NCBI GenBank assembly: GCA_002938255.1
Contig: PTLB01000004.1
Location: forward strand, 1 to 33,234
Direction of reading: 5' to 3'
Origin: Alphaproteobacteria bacterium MarineAlpha5_Bin3
Lineage (GTDB): Bacteria > Pseudomonadota > Alphaproteobacteria > HIMB59 > GCA-002718135
DNA: 33,234 nucleotides
The notes under the pieces are model-generated. The model did not search any database. It was not told the DNA's origin and saw nothing but the letters and a program-made list of their open reading frames with translations. The position numbers and the translations under genes were made by a program. Positions 14,910 to 23,111 of the stretch are shown here, piece after piece. The number at the start of each line of letters is the position of its first letter. Positions within the stretch are counted from its first letter, which is position 1.

Positions 14910-15038
14910 ATGAAAAAAATCTATTTAATATTATTTACTATAGTAATTGTAATTTTTCTTTTAATTGGACTATATTTTGTTAAGATACCTTCGCCTTCCA
15001 AATTAATATTTGAAAAGTATAAATTGATTATAAAATGA
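14910..15038 (+). CDS. 42-aa single-pass membrane protein (not in the supplied ORF track)
   Basis: MKKIYLILFTIVIVIFLLIGLYFVKIPSPSKLIFEKYKLIIK*; stop overlaps the next start as ATGA at 15035-15038. Confidence 0.6.
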   Translation: MKKIYLILFTIVIVIFLLIGLYFVKIPSPSKLIFEKYKLIIK

Positions 15039-16912
15039 AAATTTGGCTATTTATAATTATTTGCTTTTTATTTAGCAATAGTGTTTTTACAAGTGAAATT
15101 ACAATCATTAAACTTCACAATCAGTCAATTGATCAAGCTCTTTTAAATAATTTAGAAGAATCACAAGAAGATTCTGAATTAAATGAAGTAAATATTTTGG
15201 ACAATAATATCGATCAGGAAAGTGATGGCAATGTAGAAGAAAACTATGATGATGCTAATGTAGAAGAAAGTGATCTTGATACTAATGTAGAAGAAAATGA
15301 TAATGAAGCTAAAATAACTATTTCTGATGAAAACTTGTCAACTGTAAATGAAGTTATTTTACTTCCTGATCTTTGGAAAAAAACAAATGAAGAAGATTTA
15401 AATTTTTTATTGGATAATATAACTGATATTAATTCTCCTACTTTAAGATATGAATTATTATCACTGTTAAATATTGATAATCTTCCTCCAAAAAATTTGG
15501 ATAAAGTTGATTTTGAAAATCTAGTTATTCGTAGTCTTCTAAAATTTGGTGATAGAGATAAAGCTTATAAAATCTTTAATACATTCTCAGACCCAGAAAG
15601 TACTAAATACAATCTTTTTTATAAGAAATTTGAGCTTAATTATTTATTATCAACTTATAATCTTAGTGAGGCATGTGATTTTCGAAATAATTTTAAAAAC
15701 ACAGATTTAACAAGTAATAATAATTATTTTCTTAAAATTGATATTTTTTGTCTTATTCTTGAAGAAAACTTTAATGAAGCTAACTTGTTAAACGCACTAT
15801 TACAAGAAACTGGAAATATAAATGATGACTACTTTCAATATCTTTATGATAAACTTAATCAACCTAATTTAGAGGATTCAGATCCCAATAGTTTTGAAAT
15901 TAATGAAAAGGAAATTTTTTTATATAGTGCAATGCATAGAGTAGGGAATATAGCTTTAAGTCAAAAGCTTCTTCAATTAGATCCAATTAATTTATCAATG
16001 CCAATTATTTTAAGTAGCTCAACTGATATTGAATTGCGCTTAAAAGCTGCTCATGCTGCATACAACAATGGCATTCTTAAAATTGATAGTTTGGCAGCTT
16101 TATACCAAATCGTTGATTTTAGCTCTGAAGAATTAAACGATCCATCAAGTGTTGTATCAATAACTAATGGTAATATTGAGATGGGGATGGCTTATTATTA
16201 TCAATTGAGTAATATTCAACTGTTGCCAGTTAATAGATTAGAAGCAATTTTGAGTTTCTGGAAATTTGCAGAAAAAAATAATTTAGAGTTAATAGCATAT
16301 TCATTATCACAAAAGGGTCTTGATACAATTGAACCTTCTAATGAATTATCTAAATACGGAGCTGAAGTTGTTAAAGCGTATGTGCGTAGTGGCAATATCG
16401 ATAAGGCTGAAAAATGGTTATTATTTTCGGAAAATTATTCTGAAGATTTAACAAATTTACACAAACTACAATCAGCAGTATTATTATTAAATTTATTTAA
16501 AGTTGATGAATCATCACAATTTATTGATATTTTGTTAAAAAATTTACAAAACATGGAAAAGATTTCTATCAATAATAATGATCAAACCAATGCTCTTAAA
16601 AATGAAATACTATTTGTGGTATTTTCTCTTTTGAATAATAGAGATCAAAATCCTTTTAATTTGAATAGAAAAGTTGATGAACCAAGGTTCATACCTTCTG
16701 CATATATAATGAATAATATAAGAGATTGTATTAAAAATAATAATCATGCGGAATTATTATTATCAATTCTTGTATCTCTTGACGGTAAAAATTGGGCTGA
16801 ACTTCATCCTGAACATTTACGTTTGATTATAATTGCACTTGAAGAGTATAAAGATGGCTTTCTTTTAAATGATATTATCATGGAAATTTTAGAACAAAAT
16901 AAAATTATTTAA
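15035..16912 (+). CDS. Secreted helical-repeat (TPR-like) hypothetical protein
   Basis: 625 aa; signal peptide MKIWLFIIICFLFSNSVFTSE; acidic repeat segment followed by a mostly helical body. No specific family recognised. Confidence 0.6.
   Translation: MKIWLFIIICFLFSNSVFTSEITIIKLHNQSIDQALLNNLEESQEDSELNEVNILDNNIDQESDGNVEENYDDANVEESDLDTNVEENDNEAKITISDENLSTVNEVILLPDLWKKTNEEDLNFLLDNITDINSPTLRYELLSLLNIDNLPPKNLDKVDFENLVIRSLLKFGDRDKAYKIFNTFSDPESTKYNLFYKKFELNYLLSTYNLSEACDFRNNFKNTDLTSNNNYFLKIDIFCLILEENFNEANLLNALLQETGNINDDYFQYLYDKLNQPNLEDSDPNSFEINEKEIFLYSAMHRVGNIALSQKLLQLDPINLSMPIILSSSTDIELRLKAAHAAYNNGILKIDSLAALYQIVDFSSEELNDPSSVVSITNGNIEMGMAYYYQLSNIQLLPVNRLEAILSFWKFAEKNNLELIAYSLSQKGLDTIEPSNELSKYGAEVVKAYVRSGNIDKAEKWLLFSENYSEDLTNLHKLQSAVLLLNLFKVDESSQFIDILLKNLQNMEKISINNNDQTNALKNEILFVVFSLLNNRDQNPFNLNRKVDEPRFIPSAYIMNNIRDCIKNNNHAELLLSILVSLDGKNWAELHPEHLRLIIIALEEYKDGFLLNDIIMEILEQNKII
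15230..15310 (+). repeat. 27-bp tandem repeat, 3 units, encoding NVEENYDDA/NVEESDLDT/NVEENDNEA
   Basis: AATGTAGAAGAA recurs at 15230, 15257 and 15284 with exact 27-nt spacing, in frame. Confidence 0.85.
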
Positions 16913-17853: not shown

Positions 17854-20372
17854 TTACCATGACAAGTTTTGTATTTCTTACCTGAGCCACAAGGGCATGG
17901 CTCATTGCGACCTATTTTTTTTGTAACAATATTTTTAGGATCAATTTTTTTTACAACAGTTCTATCTTCATTGGATGCTATTAATTCCAAGTTGAAAAGT
18001 GTTTTAAGAACTTTTTCATCCTGCTCAGATAGCATTTGATTAAAATAATCAAAAGATTCTTTTTTATACTCATAAAAAGGATCCTTACCTCCCATAGCCC
18101 TCAAATTAACACTACTTCTTAAAGTATCCATTGCCGCTAAGTGTTCCCTCCAATTCTTATCTATATGAAACAACATTACTCTTTTTTCTGCAAAAGCGAG
18201 CAATTCTTTAGAATATTTATTTCTTTTTTCTTCATATTTTTGATTTACTTGATCTAAAATTCTTTTTTTAATTTCTTCTTCATCTACTTCATCTTCATTA
18301 AACCAATTTTCAATTGGTAAATTAATAAAAAAAGTATCTTTGACTTTCTTTTGTAGAAGAGGAGCATTCCACTCATGGCTATATTTTTTTGGGGGTATGC
18401 ATTCCAGAATGATATCACTAACAAAATCAATAATTATATCTTGAACAATATCCGATTGATCATTGGTGGCTAAAATTTCTTTTCTGTTTTTGTAGATAAT
18501 TTTTCTTTGATCATTAAGAATATCATCAAATTTCAAAATTTGTTTTCTGATATCATAATTATGAGATTCAACTTTTTGTTGCGCCCTCTCTAAAGATTTG
18601 GTTATTAGAGAATGAGTAATGACTTCACCCTCTTTAACGCCTAGCTTAGACAAAACATTTTCAAGAGTTTTAGATCCAAAAATCCTCATCAAATCATCTT
18701 CTAATGATAGAAAAAATACACTTTCACCAATATCTCCCTGCCTTCCTGATCGTCCTCGCAATTGGTTATCAATGCGACGGCTTTCATGTCTTTCAGTGCC
18801 TATAACCAATAGACCTCCAGCTTTAATTGATATTTCTTTATTTTTTGCACTCAGATCATCATCGCCGCCTAACTTAATATCTGTTCCCCTTCCAGCCATG
18901 TTGGTAGAGATAGTGACATTACCAGGCATTCCTGCTTGTAGGATTGTTTCCGCTTCCTGATCATGGACTTTTGCATTAAGCACATTGTGTTTGATATTAT
19001 TTTTTAATAGCAGTTTGGATAAAATTTCAGAATTATCTACAGAGGTAGTGCCGATTAATATGGGTTGTTTAATTTGGTGACGTTCAAGAACTAATTGCAG
19101 GACAGCATCATATTTTTCTTTTTTTGTCATATAAATTTGATCTTCTCGATCATTGCGATTGACAGGAAGATTGGGAGGGATTTCTACAACTTGCAAATTA
19201 TAAATACCTTCAAATTCTGCAGCTTCCGTGTTTGCCGTACCCGTCATTCCACTTAATTTTTTATATGTGCGAAAAAAATTTTGATAAGTTACTGAGGCTA
19301 TCGTTTGATTTTCTCTTTGAATCACCAAACCTTCTTTTGCCTCAATGGCCTGATGTAAACCATCACCATATCTGCGGCCTTCCATTGGCCTTCCTGATAA
19401 ATCATCGATAATAACAACAGATTTATCTTTAATAATATAATCTTTATCCCTTATAAATAAATGGTGAGCTCTTAATCCCTGAATAATATTATGGTTCAGT
19501 CCCATATTATCAAGATCTTGTAATGTGCCGCCTTTTATCAAATGATTTTTCAGCAATAATCTTTCAGTAACCTCCATTCCGTTACTAGATAGAAGAACTG
19601 ATTTACTTTCTTCATTAATTTCAAAATCTTCATCTTTAAGAAATTTAACGATGGAGTTGATTTTGGGATATATATCAACGGAATTGTCAGATTGGCCAGA
19701 GATTACTAAAGGAGTGCGGGCTTCATCTATTAAAATACTATCAACCTCATCAACAATTGCAAATCCTTCTTTTTTAAAGCATAGAGATTCATAGCTATTT
19801 TTTAGATTATCACGCAAATAATCAAATCCAATTTCATTATTTGTTGCGTAAATAATATCGCAATTATATTGTTTTACTTTATCTACTTCTTCCGTTTTTG
19901 ATGTTACACAACCCACTGTTAAACCTAAAAATTTATATATTTCACCCATCCAATGGGAGTCTCTGTCTGCAAGATAATCATTAACCGTAACAATATGCAC
20001 TGGATCTCCAGATAATGAATTTAGATAGGCAGCAAGTGTAGCCACAAGTGTTTTGCCCTCACCTGTTTTCATTTCAGCAATCATTCCTTGATGCAAAATT
20101 ATTCCACCAATTAATTGCACATCAAAATGTCTTAAGCTAAGTGTTCTCTTGGAAGCCTCTCTAACGACCGCAAATACTTCAATTAAAAGATCATCAAGAG
20201 CCGATCCTTCTTTAATAAGATTTTTAAAATATTCAGTTTTGTCCTGTAACTCTTGATTTGATAAATTAATTAATTTTTCTTCAAAACTGTTTATGGACTC
20301 TATTGTTTTAGAATAAGTTTTAATCTGTCTTTTGCTAGCAGATCCAAATAGTTTGTTTACAAAATTTAACAT
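17850..20372 (-). CDS. secA: Preprotein translocase ATPase SecA
   Basis: [54 protein letters not shown]-terminal zinc motif [18 protein letters not shown]. Confidence 0.98.
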
Positions 20373-20397
20373 TTTTATGATATGGGGCTGTTATCAC

Positions 20398-21672
20398 ATG
20401 GTCAAAAATAGATCTACCAAGGATTTAAGCCTTTCAAGTAATGAAAGATTATATCATACCAAAAAAAATTTCTCTATTTTCAAATTTCCAATAATTAAAA
20501 ATTTAACCTCGACTCATGTTAAATTTTATACATTTCACACAGGTTTTAAAAAAAAACGAGAGGATTTATTAATTGTAGTTTTTGATAGCTCAGTTCCAGT
20601 TGCGGCTGCATATTCAAAGACATCTACTCCTTCAGCACCTCTTATCTGGGATAAAAAAAACAACAAAGGTTTTTGTAAAATTTTGATTGTTAATTCAGGT
20701 AATGCAAATGCCCATACAGGAATGAGAGGCATTAAAGTTATTGATAACTATGTAAAGAGGGCAGCAATAAAATTTAATTGTTCTATTGAACAAATATTAG
20801 TTTCTTCAACAGGTGTAATTGGTGAGCAATTAGATGCAATAAAAATCATCAATAAATTCCCCCTCGTAAAAGATTCCAATAACAAAGACTTACTGTCGGC
20901 TGCAAAGGCAATTATGACTACAGATACCTTTCCAAAAACAATAATGAAAAAAATTAGAATTGGCTCAAAAAATATCCGTATTTTTGGTTTTGCCAAGGGG
21001 TCAGGAATGATCGCTCCTAATATGGGTACATTGTTAGCGTACATTTTTATTGAAGCAAATTTTTCAAAAAATGTTTTAAAAAATTTATTACATTCACATC
21101 TTGAGACTAGTTTTAATTCGATTAGTGTTGATGGAGATACTTCAACAAGTGATACAATAATGTTATTTTCTACAGTTAATCCTAAAGATAAGAAAGTAGT
21201 CAAGGAAACTGATATAAAAAAAATCTCTAAAACTTTGAAAGAAGTAATGTTTCAGCTGGCTCTCCAAGTGGTGTCTGATGGTGAAGGGATATCAAAATTA
21301 ATGGAAATTAATGTATCAAGAGCTAAAAATTATCAGCAGGCATCCTCCGTTGCTTTTTCTATAGCTAATTCGCAATTGGTCAAAACGGCAATAGCGGGAC
21401 AAGATGCCAATTGGGGACGTATAATTATGGCTGTTGGAAAGGCAGATTCTAAAGTTAATCAAAATAAGATAAAATTAAAATTTGGAAAATTACTTGTTGC
21501 TTGCAATGGTCAGATGTTCAATAAAATTAATATTAAAAAATTAGACATTTATATGAAAAACAAAATTATTAAAATTAATTTGGATCTGGGTATCGGGGAT
21601 TTCAAGAGAACGGTGTATGCTTCAGATTTAACGCATGAATTTGTCAGAATAAACGCCGATTATCGTTCATAA
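20398..21672 (+). CDS. argJ: Bifunctional glutamate N-acetyltransferase / ornithine acetyltransferase
   Basis: NSGNANAHTG, VSSTGVIGEQL, GSGMIAPNMGTLLAYIF (autocleavage region), SVDGDTSTSDTIML, AGQDANWGRIIMAVGKA. Track start at 20332 overlaps secA; ATG 20398 (MVKNRSTKDL) is more likely. Confidence 0.94.
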   Translation: MVKNRSTKDLSLSSNERLYHTKKNFSIFKFPIIKNLTSTHVKFYTFHTGFKKKREDLLIVVFDSSVPVAAAYSKTSTPSAPLIWDKKNNKGFCKILIVNSGNANAHTGMRGIKVIDNYVKRAAIKFNCSIEQILVSSTGVIGEQLDAIKIINKFPLVKDSNNKDLLSAAKAIMTTDTFPKTIMKKIRIGSKNIRIFGFAKGSGMIAPNMGTLLAYIFIEANFSKNVLKNLLHSHLETSFNSISVDGDTSTSDTIMLFSTVNPKDKKVVKETDIKKISKTLKEVMFQLALQVVSDGEGISKLMEINVSRAKNYQQASSVAFSIANSQLVKTAIAGQDANWGRIIMAVGKADSKVNQNKIKLKFGKLLVACNGQMFNKINIKKLDIYMKNKIIKINLDLGIGDFKRTVYASDLTHEFVRINADYRS

Positions 21673-21677
21673 ATTTT

Positions 21678-21750
21678 TTACACTTTTTGGTAAATTTGTT
21701 CCTACCTTGCCAAGGTTGAAGTCGAGGGTTAGAATCCCTTCCCCTCTCCA
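21678..21750 (+). pseudogene. Degenerate tRNA-Gly(GCC) relic
   Basis: CTACC-TTGCCAA-GGTTG anticodon arm, T arm GAGGG-TTAGAAT-CCCTT, 3' end CCCCTC-T-CCA; only the D-loop GGTA remains on the 5' side and no 5' acceptor strand pairs with CCCCTC. Confidence 0.65.
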
Positions 21751-21907
21751 AATTCCAAATATCCTCTTATTTATTTTTTAACTTAGATACCTTACAATCT
21801 CGCAAAAGTTTTGTTAAATTGTTATTCTTACCATCCTGAGATGTATATGACCTCTATCTGGGCAATGAGTTTTTTATTAATTGAGTATTGTTTACAGTAC
21901 ATATTTT

Positions 21908-22620
21908 CTACTTTTTTAAAGTAATTTTTTTTTCAAATGTTAATTTTCTATCACAATAAATATTAGAGTTTTCCATATATCGCAAATCTTTAAGAAGGTC
22001 ATAAAAATTATTGTAGTAAAATTTAAGTGTATCCCTTTCAATCACAGGATTTTGGAAATTATTTTTTTTTAAAAGATAATTTATTTTTTCAATCGAATAT
22101 AATTCCATAAATCTTCGGTACACTCCTTCATACATTTCTATATCTGCTTCAATCATGGAACTTTTTTGTTCAGGAAGGGTGTTGATACCTGGAAGAGTGG
22201 CAATAAAAAAACCATTGTTATTAAGAGAATAATTAATATTTTTAAGTAAAAGATCGAAGCTCTTAGAAAGATGAAGGTAATAATTACAAATAATTAAATC
22301 AAAAATTTCTTCCTTGAAAGCCCATTCATCGTGATCAAAGCAAATTTTGGAATGATTAGATAAAATTTTATTTAGAATGCTTAGTGAAATATCGGAAAAA
22401 TGAAAGTTTACATGAGGATACTTAAAACAGATATACTCTTCTATTTTTTACTATGAAATCCTATTTCTAAGCAGTTGTTTATTGACAAATTTATGACGTC
22501 AATTGATAAATTAATTCGACTACAAATTTCATTATATATAAATTTATCTTTATCTTTATTTATCTTATTACGTTGAAGAATATGGTATTGCTTATTGATT
22601 AATTGATCATGTTTAATATT
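21908..22620 (-). pseudogene. Frameshifted SAM-dependent methyltransferase (BioC/NDUFAF5-like)
   Basis: Reading the minus strand through one frameshift at 22444-22449 gives …VINLSINNCLEIGFHSKK/IEEYICFKYPHVNFHFSDISLSILNKILSNHSKICFDHDEWAFKEEIFDLIICNYYLHLSKSFDLLLKNINYSLNNNGFFIATLPGINTLPEQKSSMIEADIEMYEGVYRRF…NPVIERDTLKFYYNNFYDLLKDLRYMENSNIY. The track shows only the last 82 aa. Confidence 0.75.
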
Positions 22621-22637
22621 AAGTGTAATATCTTATT

Positions 22638-23111
22638 ATGGAGCATTTAATTGTAGAAATTGATAGCATAATATCTAATTGCAACAAAAAAATTAATGAT
22701 AAAATTATTGGTGTAAATTACTTAGAAAAATTGAAATTTTTTCTAATTGACTCTTTAAAAGAAAATGATTTTGCTTCTTTTGATAATATTTCTAACGTAA
22801 CTCATACAGAACTTAATAAAACATATGGTGAGAATAATTTAGTTATTACTATCCAACAGTACCAAGAATCTCTCTCAAAGATGAAAAATGAATGCATAAA
22901 TGACTTATTGAACGTTGTTTTGCAAGGTTTTATATCTCTTGATATTTATCAGAATCATAAAGAAAATGATTTGCATTCATTAAGCTTATTTCCAAAAACA
23001 GGCATAGTTTTAAGCAAAAATACATTTATTAGTGAAAAAATAATAAAAGATAGCCTAATTTTAAAGATTGTAAATATTAGAGATACTTCTAATATTAATA
23101 TTGAAATTTAA
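22638..23111 (+). CDS. Hypothetical protein, possibly cupin-like
   Basis: 157 aa ORF in a gap between annotated genes; C-terminal beta-rich segment loosely cupin-like. No firm family. Confidence 0.5.
   Translation: MEHLIVEIDSIISNCNKKINDKIIGVNYLEKLKFFLIDSLKENDFASFDNISNVTHTELNKTYGENNLVITIQQYQESLSKMKNECINDLLNVVLQGFISLDIYQNHKENDLHSLSLFPKTGIVLSKNTFISEKIIKDSLILKIVNIRDTSNINIEI

Follow-up and report, generated by a model that had tools for sequence, protein, structure and literature searches.

Gene erosion in AT-rich genomes has been described in the insect endosymbionts Buchnera and Blochmannia, where indels in A tracts come early and the same gene is lost in several lineages (PMC3017870). The published cases of rescue by slippage concern genes in which one indel lies in a long homopolymer and the frame is otherwise maintained (PMC3017870). 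Streamlined marine bacteria are described as poor in pseudogenes (PMC10308909), so that gene loss is usually visible only as the presence or absence of a gene. Here we describe a locus that represents an intermediate, a methyltransferase gene that is intact in one genus, broken but still readable in the genome G000, and cleanly gone in the congeners of G000. The locus shares with the endosymbiont cases the early A-tract indels, the AT-rich genome and the loss of the same gene in several lineages. It differs from them in that its relatives, represented by single-cell or metagenome assemblies, are probably free-living marine bacteria and not insect endosymbionts, and in that the gene carries several lesions instead of a single rescuable one. 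Its value is that of a small and clear example of repeated loss of one gene and not of a new mechanism. A further described system is the human enzyme NDUFAF5, which hydroxylates an arginine of the complex I subunit NDUFS7 (NuoB); the bacterial arginine is reported to be unmodified (PMC4938201).

The stretch of DNA analysed here, called the window, is 33,234 nucleotides long and comprises an entire contig (C34) of G000, an AT-rich genome (about 30% GC) of 874 kb in 81 contigs that is 80% complete and probably derives from a marine bacterium. The comparison set included three congeners (G001-G003), which are among the closest relatives compared and whose argJ is 66-67% identical to that of the window, and four species of the same family, each from another genus (G004-G007). 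It further comprised a sister genus with many genomes (g6) and a second family (f2). A tree of seven concatenated proteins grouped G000 with G001-G003 (support 100) and this group with G004-G007 (support 94), leaving g6 outside. According to this species tree, the intact methyltransferase copies are all found outside the G000-G007 group.

Synteny and loss of the methyltransferase gene

The gene order around the locus is nearly invariant in the family and reads accA-secA-argJ-(methyltransferase, opposite strand)-g157-DUF1178-ubiG-lysC-rodZ-ispG. In the window, the intact argJ gene (20332-21672, plus strand) serves as synteny anchor on one side of the methyltransferase. The other side is occupied by g157 (22638-23111, plus strand), an intact gene of 157 aa whose position between argJ/methyltransferase and DUF1178 is conserved across the family; its product has no Pfam match and is only 27-40% identical across the family. 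Beside accA lies an intact open reading frame of 625 aa (15035-16912, plus strand), for which no significant NCBIfam match was obtained. Relatives of the methyltransferase were located using an alignment of the intact family together with the argJ anchor; a peptide-pattern scan of the genome contigs with the broken protein as query found no relative.

The original prediction had called for a comparison with the homologue in relatives, and this comparison revealed intact copies in g6 and f2 and no copy in G001-G007 and G018. Within g6 the syntenic methyltransferase is intact, with 65 genomes carrying a match of more than 220 bits and zero internal stops. In f2 it is found between secA and DUF1178, and argJ is not at the locus. 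In G001-G003 as well as in G004-G007 no methyltransferase remains, and argJ lies almost next to g157. G018, a member of g6, likewise lacks the gene with all flanking genes present, argJ and g157 being about 7 bp apart. If the placement of G018 in the tree (support 75) is right, this is an independent loss. A homologue lies downstream of argJ on the opposite strand at 53 of 80 alphaproteobacterial argJ loci. Consequently, the position of the methyltransferase is old, and the gene is an ancestral part of the argJ neighbourhood. The simplest history starts from an ancestral gene that at least three lineages have lost cleanly and that persists as a broken copy in the window.

The window copy carries three frame-breaking changes

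We read the minus strand of 21828-22632 in all frames. A profile of six intact family members matched the locus in three pieces that lie in three different frames. Together they make up a syntenic pseudogene of a class-I, BioC/NDUFAF5-like methyltransferase (21828-22610, minus strand), extending from the original ATG to the stop that follows YISGW. The N-terminal segment (22447-22602, minus strand; family positions 1-52; 36 bits) is open, with the start codon out of frame. The middle segment (21911-22447, minus strand; family positions 53-226; 133 bits) spans 179 codons from stop to stop and matches Pfam Methyltransf_23 (E 4e-8). After the TAG at 21908, about 34 C-terminal codons continue in a third frame down to 21828; this segment, KKNYFKKVENMYCKQYSINKKLIAQIEVIYISGW* (21828-21932, minus strand; family positions 224-256), scores 16.3 bits. 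The N-terminal and the C-terminal scores were reached by none of 1000 shuffles each. The original prediction had recognized a methyltransferase homology that crosses a frame change at an A6 run (22444-22449), and the scores upstream and downstream of this run bear this out. It had, however, placed the gene at 21908-22620 and described it as interrupted only at the poly-A run. Both statements needed correction, since the true ATG lies at 22610, the C-terminal segment reaches 21828, and further breaks are found after the start ATG and at an A9 run.

Compared with the intact orthologues, the window methyltransferase thus shows three changes that break the frame. Lesion 1, the only one outside a homopolymer, appears from the comparison with intact relatives to be an 8-nt near-tandem duplication (ATCAATTA followed by ATCAATAA) directly after the start codon (22592-22610, minus strand). 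Here the window reads ATG ATC AAT TA ATC AAT AAG CAA, and intact relatives read ATG ATA AAY AAA AAA (MINKK). The frame is shifted to ATG-ATC-AAT-TAA, with a stop at codon 4 and only three codons translated. The original ATG is at 22610-22608, and the second ATCAAT copy is in register with the MINKKY of every intact relative. We infer the duplication from this single sequence, set against orthologues that are 31-41% identical to it. An interpretation of the start lesion as an ATG-to-TTA change was dropped after DNA comparison, because an ATG 8 nt upstream with a short duplication is simpler. The claim that no ATG, GTG or TTG lies upstream therefore holds for the frame in which it was made, but not for the other frame that contains this ATG. 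Lesion 2 falls at the A6 run (22444-22449, minus strand), where the frame shifts and then ends at an in-frame TAG (22443-22441), as the original prediction had stated. Lesion 3 lies at the A9 run (21925-21933, minus strand), where the frame shifts again, as is evident from the frames of the middle and C-terminal segments.

The longest start-to-stop reading frame left at the locus encodes 82 aa (21908-22156), beginning at the first ATG of the middle segment (22156), and is devoid of the SAM-binding half. Since no product longer than about 82 aa is possible, the methyltransferase copy is most likely non-functional. The locus combines two marks of a pseudogene, an intact orthologue at the same place in relatives and disabling changes that preclude a full-length product.

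Inactivation is probably recent

In-frame stops are absent from all three segments (0 of 52, 0 of 174 and 0 of 33 codons), against 2 to 26 stops in each of the other frames of this DNA. Since the in-frame segments are still free of stops, the loss is likely recent, in agreement with recent inactivation, one of the three options of the original prediction. Plain decay with many additional inactivating changes had been named there as a finding that would refute the prediction; two further frame changes were indeed present, but in-frame stops have not yet appeared. From the eight intact relatives we derived 44 invariant residues, 34 of which are kept in the window segments. The protein distance between the G000 methyltransferase and the intact ones is 2.65-2.97 times the housekeeping distance, and intact pairs at similar distance show 2.1-2.7 times; the nearest intact orthologues are 31-41% identical to the window methyltransferase, with synonymous sites saturated. 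These data suggest that the gene was under constraint during most of its history and that any relaxed phase was short. The slightly raised rate and the lost invariants could alternatively reflect the more distant position of G000 and not relaxed selection. Inactivation seems recent when compared with the split from G001-G003, and the loss in the lineage of the window was probably independent of theirs.

We conclude, with a probability of about 0.93, that the broken methyltransferase is a recently inactivated pseudogene caught before its deletion. In this model, an intact gene for a class-I SAM-dependent methyltransferase would have stood between argJ and g157 in the family ancestor, and selection on the gene would have lapsed in the lineage of the window. 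This lineage took the three frame-breaking hits described above, the 8-nt duplication next to the ATG as well as indels in the A6 and A9 runs; the likely process is replication slippage at A runs and at short direct repeats in a genome of about 30% GC. The next stage would be outright deletion, as seen in G001-G003, G004-G007 and G018.

The original prediction had also considered a sequencing or assembly indel, in which case the gene would be intact in the cell and the contig would carry false homopolymer indels. Indeed, two of the three lesions lie in A runs, the usual site of such errors. However, three separate errors would be needed within one gene of 780 bp, one of them an 8-nt duplication, and the affected gene is just the one that is absent in G001-G007. 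The error background was sampled in the window and 20 more contig stretches, 325 kb of G000 in all, which were set against 400 kb of G002. Zero frameshifts were found in 101 other orthologous genes of the genome, which hold 429 A/T runs of at least six within 80 kb of aligned genes. The power of detection was 84%, as judged from a control in which one base was removed per gene and 74 of 88 changes were recovered. The upper bound is about 0.8% per run, and two hits among the 8 runs of the gene would have a chance near 0.002. In the window itself, the intact reading frames contain 221 A/T runs with a length of at least six, 14 of which measure nine or ten; all of these runs are unbroken, and no second broken gene was seen in the 33-kb contig. 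Since the lesions are separate, the background is clean and the nearest relatives have lost the same gene, this indirect evidence makes three errors in one gene hardly credible, and we regard this explanation as very unlikely.

It had further been suggested that the gene is rescued by slippage. In such a case, a functional full-length protein would be restored by RNA polymerase slipping on the A runs or by ribosomes changing frame there. This would fit the good preservation of the in-frame segments and the length of the A9 run, which is in the range discussed for endosymbiont slippage (PMC3017870), but two events per message would be required, one at only A6, and neither of them bridges the stop three codons past the ATG. 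Slippage that is efficient at A6 would also garble many genes, given the 221 runs in the intact reading frames of the window, and close relatives manage without the methyltransferase gene altogether. Unlike the published cases, in which a gene has one indel and keeps its frame elsewhere, the window copy has two homopolymer breaks and an 8-nt duplication that cuts off the start. Its frameshift is also not conserved across related species, in which the gene is either intact or gone. Rescue by slippage is hence rejected and is the least probable of the explanations considered. A shorter functional gene, with the 82-aa reading frame (21908-22156) as a new or domain-level product, is hardly more plausible and less so than a sequence error. 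This reading frame does start with an ATG, but it has neither the SAM-binding half nor the C-terminal segment that all intact relatives share, and it has no counterpart in the nearest relatives, whose locus is gone.

Relationship to BioC and NDUFAF5

Judged by its sequence, the intact protein is a divergent member of the class-I methyltransferases and comes nearest to BioC among the named families. TIGR02072 (BioC) was the best named-family match, with the middle segment of the window reaching 57 bits and thereby remaining well below the curated cut-off of 184.95. All eight intact relatives match TIGR02072, at best with E 2.8e-24, and one of them has a score of 60.4 bits. Compared with BioC/NDUFAF5-like alphaproteobacterial methyltransferases, the family described here is divergent even where it is intact, and the window copy is dead. 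SAM-binding motif I of the intact copies reads ELGIND or ILGNHG and not GxGxG, and the f2 copies have no clear motif. Because even intact copies are without the usual GxGxG, the enzyme may be catalytically unusual. A relationship to NDUFAF5 is plausible from the position and the family of the gene.

The nuoB gene is kept in G002-G007 and in G018, all of which are without the methyltransferase; it was not found in G000, a genome that is only 80% complete. Possibly, although we consider this rather doubtful, the same methyltransferase was lost in at least three or four independent events in one streamlined family while NuoB, its alleged complex I target, was kept. If repeated independent loss is true, the lineage would provide a natural test of the purpose of a bacterial NDUFAF5-like enzyme and of the conditions under which it is dispensable.

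A tRNA-Gly remnant and related islands

The ends of argJ and the dead methyltransferase are separated by a spacer of 156 bp in the window, and the two genes nearly touch in g6. Within this spacer, which is nearly absent in relatives, we observed the 3' half of a tRNA-Gly(GCC) gene without its 5' half (21703-21752, plus strand). The T loop of this remnant is mutated and the acceptor stem is one base short. It is probably a decayed attachment site. The remnant raised the idea that an integrative element had delivered the methyltransferase; this was rejected because other genera and the next family carry the gene at the equivalent position and have no tRNA remnant there.

In four related genomes that were examined, perfect 48-bp repeats of the tRNA-Gly 3' half bound islands of about 6-13 kb at an intact tRNA-Gly gene. 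One island (L244; G008, contig C1, 256000-269000) encodes a DNA methylase and a ResIII-type helicase, and another (L245; G121, contig C2, 121000-134500) contains a complete type I restriction-modification set (HsdM, S and R). The remaining two are located in G007 (L246; contig C31, 1-14500) and G069 (L247; contig C4, 43500-52500). A tyrosine integrase was detected by Pfam in three of the four islands. Repeats of the 48-bp type occur at similar spacing in many further genomes of the order, and tRNA-Gly(GCC) appears to be a hotspot of integration there.
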